Source: Acidimicrobiaceae bacterium
GTDB lineage: Bacteria > Actinomycetota > Acidimicrobiia > Acidimicrobiales > Aldehydirespiratoraceae
DNA length: 33,877 nucleotides
NCBI GenBank assembly: GCA_009844405.1
Contig: VYBO01000022.1
Coordinates: forward strand, 1-33,877
Reading direction: 5' to 3'
The translations under genes and the position numbers were made by a program. The number at the start of each line of letters is the position of its first letter. Position 1 is the stretch's first letter. The notes beneath the pieces are model-generated. The model saw only the letters and a program-made list of their open reading frames with translations, had not been told where the DNA came from and searched no databases. Shown here piece after piece: positions 3,982 to 32,566 of the stretch.

Positions 3982-4031
3982 TGAACAGGCTGGTTGAGAT
4001 TGGGTGGCGCAGGCGGGTCGGCACACGATGT

Positions 4032-4059
4032 CTTCCTAGGACGATAGCTTTCTAGGAAG
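4032..4059. promoter_or_regulatory. Inverted repeat bracketing a -10-like box
   Basis: CTTCCTAG (4032-4039) and CTAGGAAG (4052-4059) are perfect 8-bp complements with a 12-nt spacer. The spacer contains TAGCTT (4045-4050), a plausible -10. A transcript starting after it would have a short leader containing GGGAGG before the GTG at 4073. This layout suits an operator for a dimeric regulator of the 4073-5709 genes. A terminator for the upstream gene is the alternative, but the stem is short and AT-containing. No convincing -35 is visible. Confidence 0.45.
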
Positions 4060-4072
4060 GGAGGCGCGGATC

Positions 4073-4885
4073 GTGAAGCTGGCCGACCTGCTCCAGGACC
4101 TGCTCGACGAGCAGGCCAGCCTCGACGAGATCGTGGCATCGCTGGATGGAGGCGACTGGGACCGGCCGACTCCGAGCCCCCGATGGTCGGTGACCGACCA
4201 GATCGGCCACCTGTGCTACTTCGACCGGTCCGCTGCGCAGGCCGTCCGCGATCCCGAGGCGTTCTCCTCCGAGGCCCGGCGGCTCATGGAGGCGTCGCTG
4301 GTGAGCGAGACCTCAGGGGACGACTTCACCCTGGGCGACTTCCGCCGCCTGTCTCCCGCCGACCGTATCGAGCGCTGGCGGCAGGGCCGCGCCGAGCTGG
4401 CTGCGGCCGCGGGCACCCTCGCAGAGCGCGACCGGGTGAGCTGGTACGGCCCCTCGATGGGGGCCAAGTCCTTCGTCACTGCCCGGCTCATGGAGGCGTG
4501 GGCCCACGGCACCGACGTGTGCGACACCGTGGGCGCGCACCGCGAGCCCACCCACCGGCTCCGTCATGTGGCCCAACTCGGCTACATCACCCGGGCCTGG
4601 ACCTACGTGAACCGCGGCCTCACCCCGCCCGAGGGCGATGTCCGGGTGGCACTCACCGCGCCATCCGGAGATCTGTGGGCCTGGGGTGACGTCGCCGCAG
4701 CCGGGGACAACTCGGTGAAGGGACCTGCTCTCGACTTCTGCCTGGTGGTGACGCAGCGCCGCCACATGTCCGACACAGCCCTGGAGGTCTGCGGGGAAAG
4801 CGGCCGTGAGTGGTTGACCATGGCGCAGGCCTTCGCCGGGCCGCCCACCGATGGACCATCCGCACGTGAGAGGATCGGCTTGTGA
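4073..4885 (+). CDS. TIGR03084-like metal-binding protein (DinB / maleylpyruvate isomerase fold)
   Basis: This 270-residue protein begins LADLLQDLLDEQASLDEIV and has RWSVTDQIGHLCYFD and ARLMEAWAHGTDVCD. These supply the metal-binding triad of the mycothiol-dependent maleylpyruvate isomerase fold: H46, E141 and H145. The family typically sits beside acyl-CoA metabolism genes in actinobacteria and its reaction is not established. By analogy it could be a thiol-dependent enzyme using mycothiol, which is inference only. GTG 4073 has GGGAGG about 8 nt upstream. Its stop overlaps the next start (GTGA at 4882-4885), so it is probably translationally coupled to the enoyl-CoA hydratase. The spacing from AtuA (91 bp) and the dyad in that gap suggest it may have its own promoter. 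Confidence 0.85.
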   Translation: MKLADLLQDLLDEQASLDEIVASLDGGDWDRPTPSPRWSVTDQIGHLCYFDRSAAQAVRDPEAFSSEARRLMEASLVSETSGDDFTLGDFRRLSPADRIERWRQGRAELAAAAGTLAERDRVSWYGPSMGAKSFVTARLMEAWAHGTDVCDTVGAHREPTHRLRHVAQLGYITRAWTYVNRGLTPPEGDVRVALTAPSGDLWAWGDVAAAGDNSVKGPALDFCLVVTQRRHMSDTALEVCGESGREWLTMAQAFAGPPTDGPSARERIGL

Positions 4886-5709
4886 GCCTGGTCGAGACGG
4901 CCCGGGACGGCCGTGGCGTGGTCACCGTCACGCTGGCCGACGAGGCCAACCGCAACGCCCTGAGCCGCCGGCTGCTGGCCGAGCTGTCCGCGGTCCTGGA
5001 CGGCGCCGACGCCGACCCGGCGGTGCGGGTGGTCGTGCTCACCAACGCGGGCCGGGTCTTCTGCGCCGGCGCCGATCTGCGGGAGACCGGGGCCCGAGCG
5101 GCCCGTGAGCGCAGCGAGCAGGAGCGGGAGACCGGGGCCCCCGCTGGCGACAACGTCGTGGTGGTCAGGGCCGGCGAGCTCTTCGGGCGCTTCCGCCGGT
5201 CCCCGAAGCCCTACGTGGGACGCATCGCCGGGCACTGCGTGGCCGGCGGGATGGGCTTGGCCGCGGCCATGGACATCTCCATCGCCCGTGACGACGCCCG
5301 GTTCGGGTTCACCGAGGTGCGGGTGGGGGTGGCTCCCTCCATGATCTCGGTGCTGTGCCTGCCCAAGATGCGCCGGTCCGAGGCGGCCGCGGCCTTCCTG
5401 CGGGGCAACCGCTTCAGTGCCGCCGAAGCCGCCCGCCTGGGCCTCATCAACGCAGCCGTGCCCCCGGAGAGCCTCGACGACGAGGTGGAGGCGGTGGTAA
5501 CCGACCTGCTGGCCGGAGGCCCGTCGGCGCTGGCCGCGGCCAAGCAGCTGGTCCATCGAGTCCCTGAGACGTCCTTCGACGACGCCCTCGACTGGGCCGA
5601 GCGGCTCTCGGCCGAGCTGTTCGCCGGCGACGAGGCGGCCGAGGGCATGGACGCCTTCTTGAACAAGCGCACCCCAGGTTGGGTGCCGGAAAACGGGGAC
5701 AGCCCATAG
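4882..5709 (+). CDS. Enoyl-CoA hydratase/isomerase family protein, with in-frame repeat insertion
   Basis: This 275-residue crotonase-fold protein should hydrate or isomerise an acyl-CoA double bond. Both oxyanion-hole segments are present: FCAGADL (60-66) and HCVAGGMGLAAAMD. The glutamate-bearing segment reads FTEVRVGVAPSMIS, closer to methylglutaconyl-CoA hydratase (AUH/LiuC) and AtuE-type enzymes than to the short-chain enzyme, which fits the carboxylase and AtuA upstream. Residues 71-85 (ARAARERSEQERETG) form a charged insertion after the ADL segment. It is coded by a piece of the dispersed repeat described elsewhere in this annotation. The site is a surface loop in crotonases, so function may survive. 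The start overlaps the preceding stop by 4 nt. The full repeat copy 1 begins within this gene's own TAG stop codon. Confidence 0.9.
   Translation: MSLVETARDGRGVVTVTLADEANRNALSRRLLAELSAVLDGADADPAVRVVVLTNAGRVFCAGADLRETGARAARERSEQERETGAPAGDNVVVVRAGELFGRFRRSPKPYVGRIAGHCVAGGMGLAAAMDISIARDDARFGFTEVRVGVAPSMISVLCLPKMRRSEAAAAFLRGNRFSAAEAARLGLINAAVPPESLDDEVEAVVTDLLAGGPSALAAAKQLVHRVPETSFDDALDWAERLSAELFAGDEAAEGMDAFLNKRTPGWVPENGDSP
5079..5140 (+). repeat. In-frame fragment of the dispersed repeat with flanking 17-bp duplication
   Basis: Positions 5091-5128 match the central box of the dispersed repeat (for example 7614-7651) at 36 of 38 positions. The flanks GCGGGAGACCGGGGCCC at 5079-5095 and 5124-5140 are identical, 45 bp apart, so the gain is exactly 15 codons. 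The same reading frame of the box, ARAARERSEQER, is open in repeat copy 2. The arrangement looks like an insertion with duplicated ends, or a recombination that captured repeat DNA. Confidence 0.8.
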
Positions 5710-5842
5710 AGGCCCCGCGGATAGACGGGCGACCCGGCCCATACGGGGCGGGGCCGTGGCCCGAGCGGCCCGTGAGCGAAGCGAACAAGAGCGGAAATGA
5801 CCACCCCGCGCCGCAATTGCCTGCCGATCAATCCGCGCTCGC
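5709..5842 (+). repeat. Dispersed 134-bp repeat, copy 1 (with partial tandem duplication to 5914)
   Basis: The copy starts with GAGGCCCCGCGGATA inside the stop codon of the hydratase gene. It has the hairpin arms GGCCCCGC and GCGGGGCC, the conserved box GGCCCGAGCGGCCCGTGAGC, and an ATG at 5797 opening MTTPRRNCLPINPRS (25 residues, stop at 5872-5874). Its distal part is duplicated at 5871-5914: 38 identical nt ending in CAATCCGCGCTCGC, 74 bp downstream, shifted by two bases so that it reads in a different frame. That second frame, from ATG 5871, continues into the alcohol dehydrogenase remnant. Confidence 0.85.
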
Positions 5843-5960
5843 GACATCGCCACGAAGGATTATCGGGGGGATGATCCCCGCGCCGCAATTGCCTGCCGAT
5901 CAATCCGCGCTCGCCCATGACAGAGATCCTCAATTCAGTGTCGACGATGACTGCGCAGTG

Positions 5961-6083
5961 GCTCCAAGGGGCGCTCTGGACGAGATGATCTCCCGCACCG
6001 CCGGCCTCGACGGCCTCCAGGGCGCCTTCGATGCCCTCAAGACTGGAGCCGAGGCCCGCACAGTCCTACTGCCCAACTGCTGA
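5961..6083 (+). pseudogene. C-terminal remnant of a zinc-type alcohol dehydrogenase
   Basis: The frame ending at 6083 reads ALDEMISRTAGLDGLQGAFD followed by ALKTGAEARTVLLPNC. This resembles the last 35-40 residues of medium-chain Zn-dependent alcohol dehydrogenases (pattern LDELIT...L.....GF..L..G...R.LL). Nothing of the nucleotide- or zinc-binding domains lies upstream; the frame runs back into the duplicated part of repeat copy 1. It appears to be a gene end left after deletion or insertion. A short hypothetical peptide started at ATG 5871 cannot be excluded. Confidence 0.5.
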
Positions 6084-6100
6084 GCATCCCAGAATCTCCT

Positions 6101-6715
6101 TCAGGATGCCGCCTCGTCGAGGCAGCGGGTCAGCTGCTCCATCTCGGCGACCAGGCACGCCGACACCGATGCTCTGGCAACGGCTTCGCAGCGGGCAAGA
6201 TCCTTGGTGGCGAAGGGGCTGATCACCACCAGCGTCACGCCCAGCCCGTCGTCGCGGACGAGGCTGACGCACAGCGCTATGCCGTTCTCGTCGGGGATTT
6301 CCGGAGTGTCGGCTGCGCATCCTGGTGCCGGAGCCGTGTTCAGGCTCGTCAACAGGTCGTCCACCCGGGATGCGGGCAGCGACGTGGTGAAGGCGAAAGA
6401 CGTGGTCTCGCAGCCCACTACCCGGTAGAGGCCGCCCCCGAGGTGGCCCATGTCGATGCCCGATGAGGTGAGGGTCAGCGTCGGCTCGTCCACCAGGGCG
6501 AAGCCCAGCATCGTTCCGAGCAGCTGGAAGTCTCCGGTGGCCACCACCAGCTCGCGGAACTCAGCGGGGTGCAGGGTGCATCGGGGGTCGGTCATCGGGC
6601 CGATCGAGCAGCGGTGGCCGCTGGGGCTGCTCAACTCCAGCCGGGCGCCCGGCAGGTGGAAGACTAGGGCGGCCGCTATCTGAAGGGTTCCGGCTGTGGG
6701 GGCGGGCGAGGGCAT
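6101..6715 (-). CDS. Hypothetical protein, 204 aa
   Basis: I do not recognise this family. The product has no evident signal peptide or membrane segment. It contains FRELVVATGDFQLLGTMLGF, GIDMGHLGGGLYRVVGCE and a C-terminal region rich in charged and cysteine residues (ARCEAVARASVSACLVAEME). The start is well supported: AAAGGAG lies 7-8 nt upstream of ATG 6715, one of the best ribosome sites in the window. It is isolated between gene remnants and is the only intact frame in the 5.7-7.9 kb stretch. A hairpin (6745-6766) lies just upstream of its ribosome site. Confidence 0.65.
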   Translation of the reverse strand: MPSPAPTAGTLQIAAALVFHLPGARLELSSPSGHRCSIGPMTDPRCTLHPAEFRELVVATGDFQLLGTMLGFALVDEPTLTLTSSGIDMGHLGGGLYRVVGCETTSFAFTTSLPASRVDDLLTSLNTAPAPGCAADTPEIPDENGIALCVSLVRDDGLGVTLVVISPFATKDLARCEAVARASVSACLVAEMEQLTRCLDEAAS

Positions 6716-6744
6716 GGGTGTGCTCCTTTGGGCGTGGGTGATGC

Positions 6745-6766
6745 CGCCGCCAGAGCTGTGGCGGCG
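6745..6766. other. Hairpin in the leader of the 6715 gene
   Basis: CGCCGCCA (6745-6752) and TGGCGGCG (6759-6766) form a perfect 8-bp stem with a GAGCTG loop. It lies about 30 nt upstream of ATG 6715 on the minus strand, next to the AAAGGAG ribosome site. It could affect initiation or be incidental in GC-rich DNA. Confidence 0.35.
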
Positions 6767-6878
6767 AAGGGAGCGGGTTACGTGCGGGCGCTCCGACCCG
6801 GGCCTGTGCTCCGTCGCGTGGGGCGAGGGCTCAGCGATCGGCGGGTGACTCTAGCCACCAACCCGCACGGCCGCGTCG

Positions 6879-7258
6879 CTAATTCTTGAAGGCGCGCCAG
6901 CCGTCGCGCAGTTCGCGCATGGTGGTCAGCTCGTAGGGCGGGACTCCAGCCAGTCCTTCCAACCGGCGGTGCTGAGCTGTTCGTACTCGTCGGTGCGGAC
7001 ATAGAACTGGTCAGGCTCGATTCTCTCGATCTCGGCGCCGCCGGGGGCGTTCGGGTGGAAGGCGCAGTAGGTGAGGCCGGATCCGGGGTCGCCGAGCAAG
7101 GCCCGGTAGTCGGCCGGCCGGCTGCGGGGCCGGGAGAAGTCCGACGCCAGCGCCCGGTCGAACACGGGCATCCCTGCTGATCGGGCCGCGGCGGAAGCGT
7201 CGGCGAAGGGGTCGTCGTCGACGCCGGCCAAGTGGTTGCACGGCGCCGGGGCCAACAC
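6879..7258 (-). pseudogene. Frameshifted C-terminal remnant of a YdjC/ChbG-type carbohydrate deacetylase
   Basis: Read from 7258 downward, one frame gives DYRALLGDPGSGLTYCAFHP, then IERIEPDQFYVRTDEYEQLS and TAGWKDWL. Around 6945 homology moves to another frame, which reads PPYELTTMRELRDGWRAFKN and stops at 6879. The order of a leucine-rich P-G-L-T segment, a His-Pro, a D-(F/W)-x-x-R-x-x-E-Y segment and a final T-x-R-E-L-R-D is the usual C-terminal half of YdjC/ChbG deacetylases (PF04794). The N-terminal metal-binding half is missing. Shift plus truncation make this a broken gene. Confidence 0.6.
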
Positions 7259-7266
7259 GTCGGGCG

Positions 7267-7443
7267 GGCACGGCCCACTACGGCATCCAGGTCGAGTCGC
7301 ATCCCGAGCTCGAGGAGATGCGGGAGCACATCGACTCAGCGGGAATGGCCCGGGCCGGCCAGGACGACCTGGTGTGCGGCTACCAGCCCCAGCACAAGTC
7401 CTGGGTCACCGACCCGGACGGAGTCAGGTCGGGGATCGGCTGG
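7267..7443 (+). pseudogene. C-terminal remnant of an ArsI/CadI-like VOC-family protein
   Basis: The frame reads GTAHYGIQVESHPELEEMRE and later KSWVTDPDGVRSGIGW. This is the second beta-alpha-beta module of glyoxalase/bleomycin-fold (VOC) proteins of the ArsI/CadI type, whose hallmark is GTAHFGIQVES...Y..Q.K.WVTDPDGN. The first half of the domain is absent, replaced by the opposing YdjC remnant. The usual N after DPDG is V here. ArsI cleaves C-As bonds in organoarsenicals and CadI is metal-inducible, but this fragment should be inactive. The frame stays open for another 180 codons without recognisable homology. Confidence 0.65.
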
Positions 7444-7563
7444 CCGAACTGGGCGGGCCGTCGCCGCTCACGTCATGGGTGGCACGCAAACAGACCGGGC
7501 TGCCGTCAGAGGATGCCTACGGGTCACCAGCCCTTTCTTCGGCACCCGGACCTGGAACGCTCA

Positions 7564-7696
7564 GAGGCCCCGCGGATAGGCGGGCGACCCGGCCCATACG
7601 GGTCGGGGCCGTGGCCCGAGCGGCCCGTGAGCGAAGCGAACAGGAGCGGGTATGACCACCCTGCGACGCGATTGGCCGCCGATCAATCCGCGCTCG
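7564..7696 (+). repeat. Dispersed 134-bp repeat, copy 2
   Basis: GAGGCCCCGCGGATAGGCGG opens the copy. The hairpin's right arm has one change (GGTCGGGGCC instead of GGGCGGGGCC). The central box is followed by AGGAG-CGGGT-ATG with the ATG at 7652. It differs from copy 4 at very few positions over its whole length. Sequence on both sides is unrelated to that of the other copies. Confidence 0.88.
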
Positions 7697-7753
7697 CTCT
7701 CAGATCACGTCATCGAACACTACACGGAACTGCTGGCCCACATCACCGCCTAA
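7652..7753 (+). CDS. Putative small protein starting inside repeat copy 2 (33 aa)
   Basis: ATG 7652 is preceded by AGGAG at a 5-nt spacing. The frame runs to TAA at 7751-7753, giving a 33-residue peptide. It begins MTTLRRDWPPINPRSL, coded by the repeat, and ends SDHVIEHYTELLAHITA, coded by unique DNA. Equivalent starts in the other copies give MTTPRRNCLPINPRS, MTASHRKTLASNPRS and MTTLRRDWPPINPRSLLG, so start and NPRS are kept while the tail differs. It may be a real small protein, the remnant of a longer gene headed by the repeat, or chance. Confidence 0.3.
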   Translation: MTTLRRDWPPINPRSLSDHVIEHYTELLAHITA

Positions 7754-7776
7754 CGGATTCATGGCCGATAGCTGTG

Positions 7777-7792
7777 GTCGCCATCTGGCGAC
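7777..7792. terminator. Hairpin between repeat copy 2 and the carbonic anhydrase gene end
   Basis: GTCGCCA (7777-7783) and TGGCGAC (7786-7792) are perfect complements around TC. The hairpin lies 24 nt after the stop of the small frame and 83 nt beyond the stop of the minus-strand carbonic anhydrase, so it could end transcripts from either side. There is no T-tract, so factor-independent termination is uncertain. Confidence 0.3.
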
Positions 7793-7874
7793 TGTCGCCG
7801 CTGTGCAGATCCTCACAACCGGATGAGAAGATCGAACATGGCGCCGACGCCAGCCGAGCCGCCGGCCGGTCCAG

Positions 7875-8396
7875 TCAGGAGGCCGGCGTCCCCGCTTCGT
7901 GGAGCTTGCCGTCGTCGACGTCGTACACGAAGCCCCATATGTGGTCCTTGTGCGGCAGGAACGGGGAGGAGCGCAGGCGCCGGATCGACTCGGCTACATC
8001 CTCGTAGGGGTCGGCGAACGTCTCGAGCGGCCACGACGGCCTCGATCCGGTCTCCGCTTCGAGTTCGGCCAGGAACCGGTCCTCGTCGATCAACTGGAGC
8101 CCGCAGTCGGTGTGGTGCACCAGGACCACCTCCCGGGTCCCCAATGCTCGCTGCGACAGGCACAGCGACCGTATCACGTCGTCGGTGGCCACTCCCCCGG
8201 CGTCGCGGATGATATGGGCCTCGCCGGCGCGCAGTCCGAGGATCCTGAGCACATCGAGCCGGGCGTCCATGCAGGCCACCACGGCCAGCCGGCGCGCCGG
8301 CGCGGCCGGCATCCCGGCACCGTCGAAGTCCCGGGCGTAGGCGGCGTTGCCGGCTAGCAGCTCCGGCGTGCTGGGAAGGAAGTCGTCGCCCGTCAC
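7875..8396 (-). CDS. Beta-class carbonic anhydrase (short form)
   Basis: This 173-residue enzyme should interconvert CO2 and bicarbonate in the cytoplasm. The zinc site is visible: C42 in VVACMDARLD, which also gives the D44-R46 dyad, and H95/C98 in VHHTDCGL. Short length and the CMDAR / HHTDCG motifs match the small actinobacterial beta-carbonic anhydrases such as the mycobacterial Rv1284 type. GTG 8396 has GAGAGG upstream and lies 10 nt after the stop of the lipoprotein gene, so the two form an operon. Bicarbonate could serve the biotin carboxylase at 91, but that link is speculation. Confidence 0.9.
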   Translation of the reverse strand: MTGDDFLPSTPELLAGNAAYARDFDGAGMPAAPARRLAVVACMDARLDVLRILGLRAGEAHIIRDAGGVATDDVIRSLCLSQRALGTREVVLVHHTDCGLQLIDEDRFLAELEAETGSRPSWPLETFADPYEDVAESIRRLRSSPFLPHKDHIWGFVYDVDDGKLHEAGTPAS

Positions 8397-8406
8397 CGGA
8401 GCCCTC

Positions 8407-9312
8407 TCAGGAGATCTCCAGCTGTAGGAGCAGCCGGCCCGAGCCCTCGAACTCGACCTCGAACACACCCGGGATCTCCGCAGTGAAGGCGAAACGGGCC
8501 GGGTGGCCTTCAGAAACGGATCGCAGGATGTCGTAGCCGTGGACGTGCACCTCCTCGGCGATGTCGGAAGTGACCATCAGGGCCACCACCGAGCCGAGAT
8601 CGACCTCGATCCGGCGGACGCCGCCCACCGGGGCGCCGCCGCCAACGTCCACCGTGATCGTCTGGTCGGCGTCGGCCAAGTCCGCGTCGTACCGGGTCGG
8701 TTCACCCGCCGGTCCGTGATCGTGGTCGTGGTCGTGCGGGTCGTCGGTACTGGCTTCGTGGTCATGGACCATGGCGTGGTCGCCCATCCCCGGAGCCACG
8801 ATGACGGCGGTGGCGTCGATGATGTCGCCGTCCACCGCCATGGCCGAATGGTCGTTGGCCGACAGCTCGACCCGCACCTCGTGCTCGCCGGGCGCGAGCG
8901 GGCCTATGTGATGCCATTCCCCGTAGAGCCGCGAAACCTTCTCGCCGTCGATGTAGAGGTGCATGTGGCCCTCCCCGTCGACGTGGGCGGTGGACACGTT
9001 CTCGGGCGCGATCCGGAAGTCGGTGGTGAGCACCCGGAGGTTCCATCCCTCCACCGGATCCTCTGTGACTTCGATCTCGATGGTCGGCACCGGCACGCCC
9101 TCGGCCACTTCGATAGAGCCGCCGTGGTCGTGATGGCTGCCGCCGGCCATGTCGCTCATCTCTTGGTCGTGCTGCATCTCGGCCGTGCCGGCCGTCTCCG
9201 AGGCGGTGGTTGCCGGGCCTTCGTCAGATCCACTGCAGGCCGCGGCCAGCAGGATCAGGGCCAGTGCTGCTGCCCTGAAGCCTCGCCAAGGGGTCGTCGC
9301 GGGAGCCTTCAA
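8407..9312 (-). CDS. His-rich metal-associated lipoprotein with cupredoxin-like C-terminus
   Basis: From TTG 9312 the product is 301 residues. GAGGA lies 6-7 nt upstream, and the protein begins with a basic N-region and a hydrophobic stretch ending LLAAAC-SGS, a lipobox with C26 as lipid-attached residue. The mature part has a His/Met-rich stretch (MQHDQEMSDMAGGSHHDHGG). A middle domain (about 70-165) follows with HMHLYIDGEKVSRLYGEWHH and a PGEHEVRVELSANDHS segment. A second His/Asp-rich stretch is VHDHEASTDDPHDHDHDHG. The last 90 residues look cupredoxin-like (EEVHVHGYDI, IPGVFEVEFEGSGRLLLQLE). It is probably an extracytoplasmic copper- or zinc-handling protein; metal identity is not readable. 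It is followed 10 nt later by the zinc enzyme carbonic anhydrase. Longer in-frame extensions upstream are antisense to the oxygenase and not credible. Confidence 0.75.
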   Translation of the reverse strand: MKAPATTPWRGFRAAALALILLAAACSGSDEGPATTASETAGTAEMQHDQEMSDMAGGSHHDHGGSIEVAEGVPVPTIEIEVTEDPVEGWNLRVLTTDFRIAPENVSTAHVDGEGHMHLYIDGEKVSRLYGEWHHIGPLAPGEHEVRVELSANDHSAMAVDGDIIDATAVIVAPGMGDHAMVHDHEASTDDPHDHDHDHGPAGEPTRYDADLADADQTITVDVGGGAPVGGVRRIEVDLGSVVALMVTSDIAEEVHVHGYDILRSVSEGHPARFAFTAEIPGVFEVEFEGSGRLLLQLEIS

Positions 9313-9365
9313 GTCTGTTCCTCGTGTCGGGGGTCCACGTGGCCCGCACGCTAACGGCCTGCGTC

Positions 9366-9371
9366 TAGATT
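9366..9371 (+). promoter_or_regulatory. -10-like box TAGATT, 7 nt before the oxygenase start
   Basis: TAGATT (9366-9371) is followed by exactly 7 nt and GTG 9379. With the usual distance from -10 to +1, transcription would begin at or next to the start codon, giving a leaderless mRNA. No clear -35 is visible. The 66-bp gap also carries the divergent lipoprotein start. Confidence 0.45.
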
Positions 9372-9378
9372 GGGGCGC

Positions 9379-10557
9379 GTGACCAGCATCGAGACCCGGG
9401 CGTCCGAGCGCCCCGCGCCCTCCGACGGCGACAGCGCTTCCACCGCGGGAATCGCCGCCGGTTACGACCCCGATCCCACCCGTTCGATGTCCCTTCGGGC
9501 CGACGCCTACATCGAGCCTCGCTGGCTGGAGATCGAGCAGCGCGAGATCTTCGCCCGCTCCTGGCAGTGGGTGGGCCACGTCGAGTCGCTGCGGGAGCCG
9601 GGCTCGTACGTGGCGTTGGAGGTGGCCGGCATGCCCGTCGCGCTGGTGAGGGGCGGCGACGGCGGGTTGCGGGCGTTCTACAACGTGTGCCAGCACCGCG
9701 CCCACGAGCTGCTGGCGGGATCGGGGCGCACCGGCAGCATCGTGTGCCCGTACCACGGCTGGACCTACGAGCCGACCGGCCGGCTCGCCCAGGCCCGGCG
9801 CACCGCGGACGTGGCCGGGTTCGATGTATCGAGCGTCTGCCTGAGCGAGGTCCAGGCGGAGGAGTTCGGCGGCTTCGTGTACGTCAACCTCGACCCCGGG
9901 GCCGCGCCCCTGGCCGAGCAGTCCGAAGGTCTCTGCGACGAGATCGCCCGCTGCGCGCCCGACGTGGACGACCTCACCCATGTGCGCCGCATCCACTACG
10001 ACATCGCCTCCAACTGGAAGAACGTGGTCGACAACTTCCTGGAGTGCTACCACTGCCATGTCGCCCACAAGGACTTCGTGACGCTGGTGGAGATGGACAC
10101 CTACGAGGTCACCACCCACGGCATCTACTCCAGCCAGGTGGCCAGGGCCGGGTACTCGGACAACGCCGCCTACGACGTGTCCGGGTCCACGGTAAAGGAC
10201 CTGGCCGTGTGGTGGCTCTGGCCCAACACGTGCCTGATGCGCTATCCGGGCCGGGGCAACTTCAGCGTCATGCAGATGGTCCCGGCCGGGCCGGAGCGCA
10301 CCCTGGAGACACTCGACTTCTACTTCGAGACGTCGGAGCTGACCGAGGCCGACACCGAGTCGATCCGCTACATGGACGACGTGCTCCAGCCCGAGGACAT
10401 CGCCATAGTGGAGAGCGTGCAGCGGGGCATGCGCACCCCGGCCTTCGACCAGGGCCGCATCGTCTGCGACCCGGGCGGCTCGGGCCTGTCCGAGCACGGC
10501 GTGCACCACTTCCACGGCCTGGTGCTCGACGCCTACCGCCGGGCCGGCGCGGCCTAG
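9379..10557 (+). CDS. Rieske non-heme iron oxygenase, alpha subunit (GbcA/CntA-like)
   Basis: This 392-residue oxygenase has a [2Fe-2S] Rieske site, C104-x-H106 in NVCQHRAHE and C123-x2-H126 in VCPYHGWTY. Its mononuclear iron site is in NWKNVVDNFLECYHCHVAHK, with H225 and H230 and the bridging acidic residue E222; the third ligand is probably the Asp of EDIAIVE. ECYHC and the C-terminal SEHGVHHFHG are typical of enzymes that oxidatively demethylate or cleave quaternary amines (glycine betaine GbcA, carnitine CntA, stachydrine), so a trimethylamine-type substrate is likely but unproven. No reductase subunit is adjacent. GTG 9379 has no Shine-Dalgarno but sits 7 nt after TAGATT, suggesting leaderless translation; a TTG 9 nt upstream overlaps that box. 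Confidence 0.88.
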   Translation: MTSIETRASERPAPSDGDSASTAGIAAGYDPDPTRSMSLRADAYIEPRWLEIEQREIFARSWQWVGHVESLREPGSYVALEVAGMPVALVRGGDGGLRAFYNVCQHRAHELLAGSGRTGSIVCPYHGWTYEPTGRLAQARRTADVAGFDVSSVCLSEVQAEEFGGFVYVNLDPGAAPLAEQSEGLCDEIARCAPDVDDLTHVRRIHYDIASNWKNVVDNFLECYHCHVAHKDFVTLVEMDTYEVTTHGIYSSQVARAGYSDNAAYDVSGSTVKDLAVWWLWPNTCLMRYPGRGNFSVMQMVPAGPERTLETLDFYFETSELTEADTESIRYMDDVLQPEDIAIVESVQRGMRTPAFDQGRIVCDPGGSGLSEHGVHHFHGLVLDAYRRAGAA

Positions 10558-10594
10558 CGGGCCGTCCAGCTTCGTCGGGTGTGGCCACTCCGGT

Positions 10595-11014
10595 CTAGCG
10601 GTTGATCAGGCCCGCCGCGCTGGTCGGCGTGAAGCGGGCCATCAGGCGGCCCTCGTCGATCATCGCCTGGCGGTACTCGTCCCAGTCGGGGTGCGGCCCG
10701 GCCAGCTGCTCGTAGTAGTCGACCAGAGCGTCGCTGGTGGCGTCGCCGGGCGTCGTGGTGGGCGGCGACAGCTCGACTGTCCCGTCGAGCGACACGTAGG
10801 ACCACGCCTTCTCGTCGGAGATGTGCAGCACGGCCCTCGGGTCACGCCTCAGGTTGACCGCCTTGGCCCTGCCGACGGTCATCGAGATGTAGAACACTCC
10901 GGTGTCGACGTAGTAGACGATGTCGGACGACTGGGGCCGGCCGTCGGATCGGATGGTGACCAGCACGCCGAGTTTGCGCTCGGCGGACCACTCGATTGCC
11001 TCTGAGAGTTCCAT
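10595..11014 (-). CDS. PPOX-fold flavin/F420-dependent protein
   Basis: This 139-residue split-barrel protein starts MELSEAIEWSAERKLGVLVT. It contains DGRPQSSDIVYYVD, then MTVGRAKAVNLRRDPRAVLH and WSYVSLDGTVELS, the order seen in actinobacterial PPOX-class F420-dependent oxidoreductases of the Rv1155 type. Cofactor (F420 or FMN) and substrate cannot be assigned. I chose ATG 11014 because AGGAAA precedes it and the family N-terminus fits; an in-frame start at 11050 would lie inside repeat copy 3. That copy ends 16 nt upstream, and its small frame (16 residues) stops just before this gene's ribosome site. The gene converges on the oxygenase with a 37-nt gap. Confidence 0.85.
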   Translation of the reverse strand: MELSEAIEWSAERKLGVLVTIRSDGRPQSSDIVYYVDTGVFYISMTVGRAKAVNLRRDPRAVLHISDEKAWSYVSLDGTVELSPPTTTPGDATSDALVDYYEQLAGPHPDWDEYRQAMIDEGRLMARFTPTSAAGLINR

Positions 11015-11029
11015 GCCGCGTTTCCTAGT

Positions 11030-11163
11030 GCGAGCGTGGATTGCTCGCAAGCGTCTTGCGGTGCGATGCTGTCATTCCCGCTCCCGTTAGCTTCGCTCAC
11101 GGGCCGCTCGGGCCACGGCCCCGCCCCGTATGGGCCGGGTCGCCCGCCTATCCGCGGGGCCTC
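11030..11163 (-). repeat. Dispersed 134-bp repeat, copy 3 (minus strand)
   Basis: On the minus strand it begins GAGGCCCCGCGGATAGGCGG at 11163. It has perfect hairpin arms, the box GGCCCGAGCGGCCCGTGAGC, then GGGAGCGGGA-ATG. The small frame gives MTASHRKTLASNPRSH and stops. The first ~88 nt are nearly identical to copies 2 and 4. The segment after the ATG is diverged except for the NPRS codons and the GCTCGC end. It sits directly upstream of the PPOX gene in the same direction. Confidence 0.87.
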
Positions 11164-11193
11164 GAATACGCATGCAAAATATAGACTCAGGTG

Positions 11194-11316
11194 GTGGCTA
11201 CCACGACGATCCGCGTCGACACCGATACGCACGCCCGGCCCGATCTCGCGGGTCTTCGCGCAGTACACCGCGGCCGCCTCAGGAACAGCCCCCAACGTGT
11301 CGGAGGGGGGACTTGA
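11194..11316 (+). pseudogene. N-terminal remnant of a type II antitoxin
   Basis: GTG 11194 opens MATTTIRVDTDTHAR, the standard N-terminus of small ribbon-helix-helix/VapB-type antitoxins in actinobacteria. After about 15 codons similarity stops and the frame ends at 11316 inside the tRNA-Leu gene. TAGACT (11182-11187) lies 6 nt before the GTG, so the original promoter seems preserved. It lies between repeat copy 3 and the tRNA, so the rest of the gene was probably lost in a rearrangement there. Confidence 0.45.
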
Positions 11317-11382
11317 ACCCCCACGCCCAATCTGGGCACTAGCCCCTCAAGCTAGCGCGTCTGCCAATTCCGCCACTCCGAC
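11298..11382 (-). tRNA. tRNA-Leu (anticodon GAG)
   Basis: On the minus strand the acceptor stem GTCGGAG pairs with CTCCGAC, followed by discriminator A at 11298. The anticodon stem-loop is CTAG-CTTGAGG-CTAG-like, with GAG in the loop. A variable arm (TGCCCAGATTGGGCG) and a T arm with GGTTCAAGTCC are present, as expected for a class II leucine tRNA. CCA is not encoded. It lies 36 nt after the methyltransferase gene on the same strand. Confidence 0.95.
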
Positions 11383-11418
11383 GTGGGCCGTCAGCTGCTA
11401 CCGACGGGGAGGGTGATG

Positions 11419-12360
11419 CTACCGGCGACGGTGCCTGCCGCCACGGCCGGAGACCCTCTGCGAGAGGCCGTCGGCGGTCGCCTGTACTCGCTTCCGCATG
11501 CGGCGCAGGAGTCGGCCGGCGGTTGCCTCCGCCTCCCTGAGCCGGCTGCTGGCATTGGCCCGCTCGCCCAGGCCCGTCAGCAGGCGAGCAACGGTCGAAC
11601 CCGCGCAACCAGGAATCTGTGAAGCCTTCTCCGCGATGTCGGTCTCCCGGGCATCGGCCTCGGGGACTGCCACGCGGATGAAGCGGGCCGACAGCACGCC
11701 GTAGCGTCGGCGAGCGTCGGCGTGGTTGAAGAACTCGCCCTGCTCGGCGCTCCGGTAGGCGCCTCCCCCCAGTTTCTCGCAGCAGCGCAGCGACTGTACG
11801 GCGAACTCCGGCGCGAACATCTCGACGATGTTCCAATCGAAGCAGACCGGTTCCTGCGGTGTCGGCCTGTCGTGGACGTCGGTGATGACGAGCAGCAAGC
11901 CCCCGACTGCTGTGAGGCGCTTCATCTCCGCGATCGTGGCTTCCAAGTCGTCTACGTGGTCGAGCGAGTTGAACGAGCAGACGATGTCGAACCTGTGGTC
12001 TTCGAACGGGATGGACTCGGCGCCCGCGGCGACGTAGGTCATGGCATGGTCGGCGGCACCCATCTGCAGGTAGTCGTCCGCCAGCGGGTCGACTCCGATC
12101 CGCTCGCGGGCCATCGTCGCCCACTCGAGCGATCCCCGAGGACCGCAGCCGATGTCCAGCACCCTCCTGTCGCTGTAGTCGTCGCGGGTCAGACCGAAGT
12201 GGCCGGTGTAGAAGCCCTCGAACCAGCTGTTCTGCAGCACTCCCTCCGCGTCCGCGCGTCTCGACCAGTAGTCGAGTTCGCCGGCGCGCTTGGTCCGGCC
12301 CTGTCCGTCGCTGACGCCGGTCGCTTCTCGGCTGATCCCTGACTGGTCGTCACTGGTCAT
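11419..12360 (-). CDS. Class I SAM-dependent methyltransferase
   Basis: This 313-residue protein has the SAM-binding motif VLDIGCGPRGSLEW, an acidic end of beta-2 (RIGVDPLAD) and DIVCSFNSLDHVDD, then GGLLLVITDVHD: a complete Rossmann methyltransferase core in residues about 60-210. The N-terminal 40 residues (GELDYWSRRADAEGVLQNSW) and a basic C-terminal tail (LLRRMRKRVQ...GRGGRHRRR) are extra. The substrate is unknown. ATG 12360 has no ribosome site but is 7 nt downstream of TAAGCT (12373-12368), so a leaderless transcript is likely. Repeat copy 4 begins immediately upstream of that box. The tRNA-Leu gene follows. Confidence 0.82.
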   Translation of the reverse strand: MTSDDQSGISREATGVSDGQGRTKRAGELDYWSRRADAEGVLQNSWFEGFYTGHFGLTRDDYSDRRVLDIGCGPRGSLEWATMARERIGVDPLADDYLQMGAADHAMTYVAAGAESIPFEDHRFDIVCSFNSLDHVDDLEATIAEMKRLTAVGGLLLVITDVHDRPTPQEPVCFDWNIVEMFAPEFAVQSLRCCEKLGGGAYRSAEQGEFFNHADARRRYGVLSARFIRVAVPEADARETDIAEKASQIPGCAGSTVARLLTGLGERANASSRLREAEATAGRLLRRMRKRVQATADGLSQRVSGRGGRHRRR

Positions 12361-12367
12361 TCGAGCC

Positions 12368-12373
12368 AGCTTA
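12368..12373 (-). promoter_or_regulatory. -10-like box TAAGCT abutting repeat copy 4
   Basis: On the minus strand TAAGCT is followed by 7 nt and ATG 12360. The repeat begins at 12374, directly next to the box, so any -35 would lie inside repeat DNA. Confidence 0.4.
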
Positions 12374-12506
12374 GAGGCCCCGCGGATAGGCGGGCGACCC
12401 GGCCCATACGGGGCGGGGCCGTGGCCCGAGCGGCCCGTGAGCGAAGCGAACAGGAGCGGGTATGACCACCCTGCGACGCGATTGGCCGCCGATCAATCCG
12501 CGCTCC
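12374..12506 (+). repeat. Dispersed 134-bp repeat, copy 4
   Basis: It starts GAGGCCCCGCGGATAGGCGG and has perfect hairpin arms, the central box, and AGGAG-CGGGT-ATG at 12462. Its frame begins MTTLRRDWPPINPRSLLGSG and stays open to 12728, antisense to the end of the transporter gene, so most of it is unlikely to be used. The copy is nearly identical to copy 2. It lies between two minus-strand genes and points away from the methyltransferase it abuts. Confidence 0.88.
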
Positions 12507-12575
12507 CTCTTAGGTTCGGGCGCGGCGAACCGGCCTGCAGCCGATGCAGGAGTCGCTCCCGGCCGCTTGAGTGCC

Positions 12576-13211
12576 CTAGCCGCAGCAGGTGTCTTCAAGG
12601 GAGTTGGCCCGCCACACATTCACGGTCTCGTAGGCGGCCAGCGAGGCTATGAACAGCCCGGCCAACGGGTCGGCCCACCACCATCCCTGGGCCGCGTTGG
12701 CGCCCAGCCCGAGGAGCAGCCCGCCTGACATGAGCGCGCACAGCACCGTCTGGGTGGCCTCGGCCTCCACTGCTCGCGACCCGACAACCGGAGCGAGGCG
12801 TCGCTTGGCTAGGGCCAGTGCCGGCATGACCACCAGCGACAGAGCCGCTATCGCGATCCCTACCGGCGACCCGTCGGGACGGTGGGCCAGCACCAGGTCC
12901 CGGACCGACTCCACACCCACGTAGACGGCCAACGCAGCGAAGCTCACCGCGATGAGGCGCTGGGCCCGCCTGTCGGCGTCCTGCTTGCAGCCGGTGCGGC
13001 GCTCCTGGGCCAGCCGCCACGCCAGGATCACCGCGGCCGACACCTCGATGCCGGAGTCGAGGCCGAAGCCGATCAGACTGACCGAGCCGGCGGCGACGCC
13101 CGCGGCGACCGCGACCGCTCCCTCGACGACGTTCCAGCCGATGGTGGCGCCCGTCAGCCACTTCTGGCGGGCGACGGCCTGATCCCTGCCCATGGGCGCC
13201 GTCAGTGCCAT
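12576..13211 (-). CDS. Cation-diffusion-facilitator-like transporter (single domain)
   Basis: This 211-residue membrane protein has about six hydrophobic segments. The acidic helices carry GFGLDSGIEVSAAVILAW and WWWADPLAGLFIASLAAYE, corresponding to the metal-site helices of CDF proteins, although the usual His partners are replaced. A short basic loop (QERRTGCKQDADRRAQR) lies after the second helix pair. The cytoplasmic C-terminal domain of classical CDF exporters is missing, and the protein ends SLEDTCCG with adjacent cysteines that could touch metal. A divalent-cation exporter is the best guess. ATG 13211 has a very strong ribosome site, AGGAGGTGA, about 8 nt upstream. Confidence 0.75.
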   Translation of the reverse strand: MALTAPMGRDQAVARQKWLTGATIGWNVVEGAVAVAAGVAAGSVSLIGFGLDSGIEVSAAVILAWRLAQERRTGCKQDADRRAQRLIAVSFAALAVYVGVESVRDLVLAHRPDGSPVGIAIAALSLVVMPALALAKRRLAPVVGSRAVEAEATQTVLCALMSGGLLLGLGANAAQGWWWADPLAGLFIASLAAYETVNVWRANSLEDTCCG

Positions 13212-32398: not shown

Positions 32399-32460
32399 GG
32401 ATACTAGCCATATCAGCACGCCGCGGGACGCCGCCCGGCCTGTCCGGAGATGGGCGCCTG

Positions 32461-32566
32461 CCCATGCAGCGCGGCCTGCACGAGCTCATCGCGAGTTGGG
32501 GCGACGCTGCGCACCTCTGTGCGCCCACGCGCCCATGCAGCGCGGCCTGCACGAGTTGATCGCGAG
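32461..32566 (+). repeat. Two copies of a 35-bp direct repeat
   Basis: 32461-32495 and 32532-32566 match at 33 of 35 positions, 71 bp apart. Each begins CCCATGCAGCGCGGCCTGCA and would encode MQRGLHELIA; the differences are in one Leu codon (CTC/TTG). They lie 140-210 bp upstream of the restriction helicase. They may be a duplicated gene start, a regulator site pair, or junk from a rearrangement. Confidence 0.6.

Follow-up and report, generated by a model that had tools for sequence, protein, structure and literature searches.

An in-frame repeat unit inside an actinobacterial crotonase and its probable source in a coding minisatellite of the adjoining gene

Introduction

How does a piece of a dispersed repeat come to lie in frame inside a conserved enzyme, and from where was it copied? 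The question is raised by a crotonase gene of an uncultured Acidimicrobiaceae bacterium, found in a 33,877-nt stretch of contig VYBO01000022.1 that is called the window here; the genome examined (G000) is a 3.35-Mb draft in 150 contigs. Selfish repeats that conserved enzymes have captured in frame are best described from Rickettsia. The present locus offers a high-GC actinobacterial setting in which several stages are visible, from the complete MITE-like element through isolated and tandem boxes to coding arrays of 0-5 units and a single unit within an enzyme. It would thereby become possible to follow, at the level of single bases and in extant relatives, how proteins gain insertions by repeat transfer, and to test this on a small, easily assayed enzyme fold.

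A lineage-specific in-frame unit in the crotonase

The genes 5′ of the crotonase encode a biotin carboxylase-like protein, an AtuA-family protein and a TIGR03084-family protein, a set that suggests branched-chain or terpenoid acyl-CoA breakdown. The TIGR03084-family gene (MDMPI_N; 4073..4885, + strand; TIGR03084 with 295.9 bits against a cut-off of 247.95; PF11716) has a stop codon that overlaps the crotonase start (GTGA). The crotonase, an open reading frame of the enoyl-CoA hydratase family at 4882..5709 (+), matches PF00378 with 160.1 bits, and its fold model is that of a crotonase, with 3myb as the best match of the fold search. As an earlier note based on the letters of the window had reported, two identical copies of the 17-mer GCGGGAGACCGGGGCCC lie inside this frame, at 5079..5095 and 5124..5140 (+), 45 bp apart; with the box GAGCGGCCCGTGAGCGCAGCGAGCAGGAGCGG between them they make up 62 bp (5079-5140) and add 15 codons to the enzyme. 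The central box of the repeat is likewise found in the coding sequence as stated there, the 38 bases at 5091-5128 agreeing at 36 positions with the copies at 7613 and 12423, and at 34 positions with the copy at 5758; the core of the box (5096..5127, +) is translated as part of RAARERSEQERE. Because the two 17-mers are identical, the exact extra 45 bp cannot be fixed: 5086..5130 (+) is one possible phase, no better than any other 45-bp stretch within 5079-5140.

The insert follows the ADL segment, in a stretch that varies between 18 and 75 residues among 121 aligned sequences and has 34 here, in line with the loop position first proposed. All 15 residues are lacking in 119 of the 120 listed homologues, and the homologue alignment contained no orthologue from a repeat-free organism with the same 15 residues; they are present in a single listed homologue, P0001, which shares 97% identity with this crotonase (10 amino acid differences) and has an identical insert. 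The site was readable in 14 of the 15 other same-genus genomes (G003 gave no match), and all 14 lack the insert, 12 by DNA and two (G011 and G013) by translation. In G012 the empty site reads CTGCGGGAG AGC TCG GCC, and it is similar in the others. The crotonase thus has a repeat-derived in-frame insertion that is lineage-specific. Three crotonases of other lineages (P0075, P0091 and P0093) have different repeat-like insertions in the same stretch (DDGVRADRAERPPG and similar, in one or two copies), and different long insertions occur at the very place of the insert in P0091, P0093 and other homologues.

A collapsed repeat could also leave such a tract as an artefact of assembly or binning, and repeats do break contigs in this genus, since contigs of G015 end in an array and one array of G000 is interrupted by a run of N. 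We nevertheless hold an artefact to be extremely improbable, as the frame is kept, both sides align with orthologues, and P0001 is a separate record whose 10 differences leave the insert identical.

The dN/dS values of this crotonase against five relatives are 0.21-0.33, compared with 0.12-0.22 for six insert-free pairs, and the gene is still under purifying selection, perhaps slightly relaxed. Residue S153 is an alanine in P0001 and in at least 90% of the sequences of alignment A1, and changes at well-conserved places such as this one could mean loss of function. We infer that the extra residues are tolerated since the loop varies in length, and that the enzyme would still work. The AlphaFold model has a mean pLDDT of 75.9 but a value near 50 in the insert region, and therefore no claim is made on the shape of the insert.

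The repeat family and its MITE-like form

The 32-mer core has 254 matches in the 3.35-Mb genome at up to 3 mismatches, against none for the reversed pattern, so the repeat is not due to chance. At the same threshold, core copies are present in 15 of the 16 same-genus genomes, with 4 to 303 in each and none in G005; a 145-bp probe gave matches in 24 of 61 genomes, comprising all 16 of the genus (G000 included) and 8 of the 45 others. Full copies are mostly 136 bp long, running from GAGGCCCCGCGGAT to ATCCGCGCTCGCTC, and have imperfect terminal inverted repeats (GAG..CGCGGAT / ATCCGCG..CTC) when the flank listing is read by eye. Exact 3-bp target duplications flank 39 of the 63 full copies with distinct flanks, a few of the 39 being tandem copies, whereas 5.8 are expected with shuffled flank pairing; 17 of the 39 duplications are TNA and 22 are other triplets. 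Because 136-bp copies have 3-bp duplications well above expectation, the full repeat is, by its sequence features, a 136-bp MITE-like element that behaves as a MITE. Within the window, full copies at 7564..7699 (+) and 12374..12509 (+) have the 3-bp duplications TCA and TTA, respectively, and G015 has no copy at the latter place; a MITE-like copy at 11028..11163 (-) is without an exact 3-bp duplication.

Another copy adjoins the crotonase, at whose 3′ end the earlier note had located the whole repeat. The full repeat is indeed present from 5709, its first base being the last base of the TAG stop (5707-5709), but that account is incomplete in that the repeat, according to the relatives, is itself an insertion. 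In 11 of 13 relatives read, no repeat separates the crotonase from the next gene, and the stop of the one directly overlaps the start of the other (ATGA or GTGA); the junction at 5709 reads ...CCCATGACAGAG or similar there. In G000, by comparison, 5709-5976 has a MITE-like element at this overlap place, with CCAT on both sides. The copy itself (5709..5844, +) has its own right end without an exact 3-bp duplication, and it is followed at 5876..5914 (+) by a second copy of its right-hand part (family D3, 100% identical to 5804-5842) and then by CCATGACAGAG. About 2 kb that come next in G009, G010, G012 and G014 are missing here, and the next gene is reduced to its first bases.

GAG ends mark the IS1031 subgroup of the IS5 family, and this subgroup is a possible mobiliser of the full element. 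In the part of the literature consulted on it, 3-bp target duplications of the subgroup are described as preferring TNA (PMC12016507). The element is similar in its 3-bp duplications and in the 17 of 39 that are TNA, but dissimilar in the 22 of 39 that are not; at the three PF01609 (IS5-like) places of G000, no transposase with matching ends was found, only loose partial end matches, and the 987-kb sample described below yielded no longer element that convincingly carried the two ends and could be an autonomous partner. A REP/RAYT system was rejected as well, with 0 matches to PF01797 (Y1_Tnp) in G000 (95% complete) and a positive control in 5 of 14 genomes, and so was a structured RNA: with E values up to 0.5 allowed over window positions 4000-13000, Rfam matched none of the repeats and gave a tRNA gene at 11298-11382 only. 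Folding was no better than that of shuffled sequences for the 62-bp tract (z -0.81) and the box (z 1.22), and z was 0.20 and -1.40 for two complete copies. The literature searched contained no description of the repeat, and the text matches, among those listed, were to an 11-base DNA string only and never to the peptide.

The wider distribution of the box was read from a 987-kb sample of 61 stretches, which were partly picked where copies were known and are thus not random, with cores taken at up to 5 mismatches. Although 89.6% of the sample is called coding, 84 of its 109 cores are intergenic, while crude gene calls enclose 20 and have 5 at their edges; by context, 41 belong to full elements, 26 are partial, 41 are isolated or tandem, and one is too near an end. 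Tandem pairs less than 60 bp apart number 13, with a spacing of 43 (5), 44 (6) or 45 bp (2); 11 of them are outside called genes, and the two others, in L112 and L121, are inside called ORFs. Many of the boxes called coding by the crude gene caller are not evidence of coding use, as four are possible N-terminal GTG extensions and others fall in short weak ORFs.

Tandem period or target duplication

The 17-mers had at first been taken for duplications of an insertion site. This was not borne out by the relatives, whose empty site is GCGGGAGAGCTCGGCCC (G012) or a close variant, and the 17-mer is therefore, over much of its second half, not native. Only GCGGGAG and the final GCCC of the insert borders are native-like, and the relatives read do not have the part between. 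The same linker stands instead between the tandem units of the upstream gene in relatives, as GCGGGAGACCAGGGCCC in G006 and G009 and as GAGACCGGGGC at a contig end of G015, and GCGGGAGACCTGGGCTC is the linker type in a 45-bp-period tandem of G000 itself (C95:90066). Since the linker matches 45-bp-period tandems elsewhere, the insert is a complete period with a partial one on either side, and the apparent 17-bp flanking duplication is, on this comparison, the repeat's own 45-bp tandem period.

These data bear on two forms of direct insertion. In one of them, a small mobile box would have inserted and made a 17-bp target duplication in the manner of a Rickettsia palindromic element, which would account for identical 17-mers on both sides of the core and for a box that is repeated across the genome. 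We judge this highly improbable: the 17-mer is not native in relatives but recurs nearly unchanged as an inter-unit linker, and the transposing element differs in its ends and generates duplications of 3 bp. A 17-bp target-site duplication as such is ruled out by the empty-site sequences together with the linker comparison. In the other form, the MITE-like element would have transposed directly into the crotonase; this was rejected, as there are no element ends and no 3-bp duplication at 5079-5140.

Coding arrays at the end of the upstream gene

In relatives, the TIGR03084-family gene ends in tandem in-frame units RARAARERSEQERET, each composed of the central box of the genus-wide MITE-like repeat and a GAGACC linker. 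There are two units in G006 and G009, one in G014 and none in G012 and G000; in G015 both contig ends carry units, and the array stops with the contig. DNA comparison places the corresponding empty site of the window, which is array-bearing in G006, G009, G014 and G015, at 4850..4869 (+), with the insertion point after 4857. Among 120 listed TIGR03084-family proteins, including the window's own (P0139), 24 have 1-5 C-terminal units at up to 2 mismatches and 96 have none; ten of the 24 have one unit, seven have two, five have three, one has four and one has five. The units of the upstream gene are spaced by 45 bp in 15 cases and by 48 bp in 9, in contrast to the 43-45 bp of the genome sample, which indicates that the arrays in the gene keep the frame. 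The array is thus, as far as the compared sequences go, a coding minisatellite of tandem units whose copy number (0-5) varies between relatives. The G015 assembly breaks inside the array (at the ends of L295 and L073), and array copy numbers in MAGs are therefore probably under-reported.

P0121 has four units, some of them with the linker ETGA that also occurs in the crotonase insert. P0181, counted among the 96, has three tandem units in another frame (GPERPVSAAKVSG; GPERPVSAAKVSGKLA) at the same C-terminal place, with 48 bp spacing, which suggests an independent capture.

Source of the crotonase unit

We consider it likely that the insert is one 45-bp unit of the upstream-gene minisatellite, copied within the operon by local short-homology recombination or template switching. 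The distance from the upstream-gene insertion point to the crotonase unit is 229 bp. The G015 array ends with its contig, which leaves 52 bases for comparison; 51 of them agree with the insert, and the one difference, at 5118, is synonymous. A complete pattern scan of the 16 same-genus genomes (52 bases of the 62-bp tract as the pattern, with two positions left free and at most 3 mismatches allowed) found 12 places besides the crotonase insert, five of which are upstream-gene arrays (one in G015, two each in G006 and G009). The G015 upstream array was the only place with 0 mismatches; three places, namely the G006 and G009 upstream arrays and G014:C83 outside the operon, had 2, and eight had 3, two of these being in G000. 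A BLAST-type search with the 62 bp (at most 40 candidates scored per genome, 16 genomes) ranked, outside this locus, the upstream arrays of G006 and G009 first, then G004:C9 and then the G015 array. In the crotonase tree, G000 groups with G015 with supports of 0.76 and 0.87, in a tree of one gene that is distorted by G001 with only 21 codons.

The empty crotonase site of relatives holds GCGGGAG, which is also the unit end and is in the same codon phase (CGG GAG). The native CTG-CGG-GAG, as a nascent strand or broken end, could have paired with the CGG-GAG of the GAG-CGG-GAG unit end of the array; one period (45 bp, 15 codons) would then have been copied and rejoined at the native GCCC with the frame kept. 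This would leave two partial repeats flanking the core and the native serine codons replaced. G000 would have lost the upstream array later, or never fixed it, and an array in the common ancestor with later loss in G000 is plausible. Several observations weigh against the neighbouring gene as the source. The upstream gene of G000 is without a unit, so that the donor is seen in relatives only; at C52:26048-26090, G000 has a sequence that matches over 43 bases at 98% and shares the 5118 base of the insert, unlike the G015 array; G014:C83, outside the operon, does as well in the pattern scan as the best units of G006 and G009; and no outgroup with both states polarises the direction of transfer, the recombination step being one that we infer.

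An alternative is that some other box of the genome, dispersed or in tandem, supplied the unit by ectopic gene conversion or a similar process, and that the arrays of the neighbouring gene are independent captures. The 254 boxes of the genome would provide many donors, among them C95:90040-90116, where boxes joined by the linker GAGACCTGGGCTC form a 45-bp tandem that lies outside called genes, and the variant base at 5118 is present in C52:26048; the other-frame units of P0181 at the same C-terminus further indicate that captures recur there. The two other G000 places in the complete scan, however, have 3 mismatches each over 52 bases, as against 0 at the specified positions for the neighbour array of G015, and we regard a dispersed source as unlikely. 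Copying from the upstream-gene array remains our preferred reading. In a broader and more tentative form, which we would put forward as a possibility less likely than not, the central box of the MITE could be a self-standing coding module that forms 45/48-bp in-frame tandem units at the stop/start overlap of operon genes, and whose units may be passed into the folded domain of the next gene via CGG GAG codon-phase homology; a selfish repeat would in that event be a renewable source of in-frame loop insertions.

Comparison with known repeat systems

The Rickettsia palindromic element (RPE), to which the insert had been likened, is a parallel that holds for how the insert works and not for what it is, as 84 of the 109 boxes in the sample are intergenic and the nearest source is the 45-bp array of a neighbouring gene. 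According to the portions of the reports consulted, RPE is found in 19 reading frames, an active guanylate kinase with an insert is reported (PMC2229807), and the element is about 105-150 bp in size (PMC2229807, PMC10969869). As in these accounts, and as in the protein-coding palindromes of Wolbachia, a repeat-derived peptide lies here in frame in a conserved enzyme and is apparently tolerated. An RPE would be a palindromic, foldable element inserted whole, whereas the crotonase piece is 45 bp long, about one third of the element, lacks its ends and folds like shuffled sequences; moreover, most copies of the present repeat are outside genes, and the likely source is an adjoining coding tandem array.

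Mycobacterial interspersed repetitive units (MIRUs) are often located at gene overlaps in operons, where they extend the upstream frame. They are characterised, in the part of the source consulted, as tandem units of 46-101 bp at many loci with variable copy number (PMC3914561). The upstream-gene array is MIRU-like by description, in its unit size, its variable copy number and its location at a GTGA overlap. It differs in having as its unit the core of a MITE-like element, one that is found in the interior of the downstream enzyme as well. The crotonase insert works like RPE and MIRU, and membership in either family is not claimed.

BrickBuilt of Porphyromonas gingivalis likewise links a MITE with a minisatellite, having interior 23-nt units and being always intergenic in the account consulted (PMC4596501), whereas the units here are 43-48 bp long and at least one gene contains them in frame. 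For intragenic ERIC/IRU and further MITEs of bacteria, in-frame fusions to host genes are reported in the sections consulted (PMC2229807, PMC10969869); the enzyme here differs in holding a sub-unit without element ends. In-frame repeat capture is thus known, as in RPE, and what is likely to be new is a coding minisatellite derived from a MITE core, one unit of which would have been transferred into the neighbouring enzyme.

A second coding case and other repeat-associated sites

A TgpA-like transglutaminase-domain protein (L131:3403-6078, -; the same gene is also in L275, and a relative's copy is in L276) has about 70 extra in-frame residues in its N-terminal half. The insert contains two boxes, with 2 and 5 mismatches, read in the frame PVSAANKSG, which differs from the crotonase frame. 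A related insert is present in G015, 13 other same-genus genomes match without it (12 by alignment, and G014 as a further match), and G002 gave no match. From these two proteins, in-frame capture is not confined to the crotonase, but clear cases inside conserved domains are rare in the sample.

Other boxes of the sample touch the ends of called genes. The called start is a GTG beside a box (VARAARERSEQERE or VARAARERSENERE) at L110:10210-11400 (-), L118:2332-3813 (-), L127:816-1748 (+) and L153:13754-14449 (-), and these starts are either repeat-supplied or spurious extensions. The C-terminus enters a repeat box in a HIT-domain protein (L102:1824-2309, +), which ends in RGGAVARAARDRSEQERE, and in a 552-codon gene (L154:10854-12509, -), which ends in GPERPVSAANESGRGAA. 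Within the window, the tRNA gene at 11298-11382 (-) lies near the MITE-like copy at 11028-11163, and a 36-nt direct repeat, 94% identical with 71 bp spacing, is found at 32460-32566.
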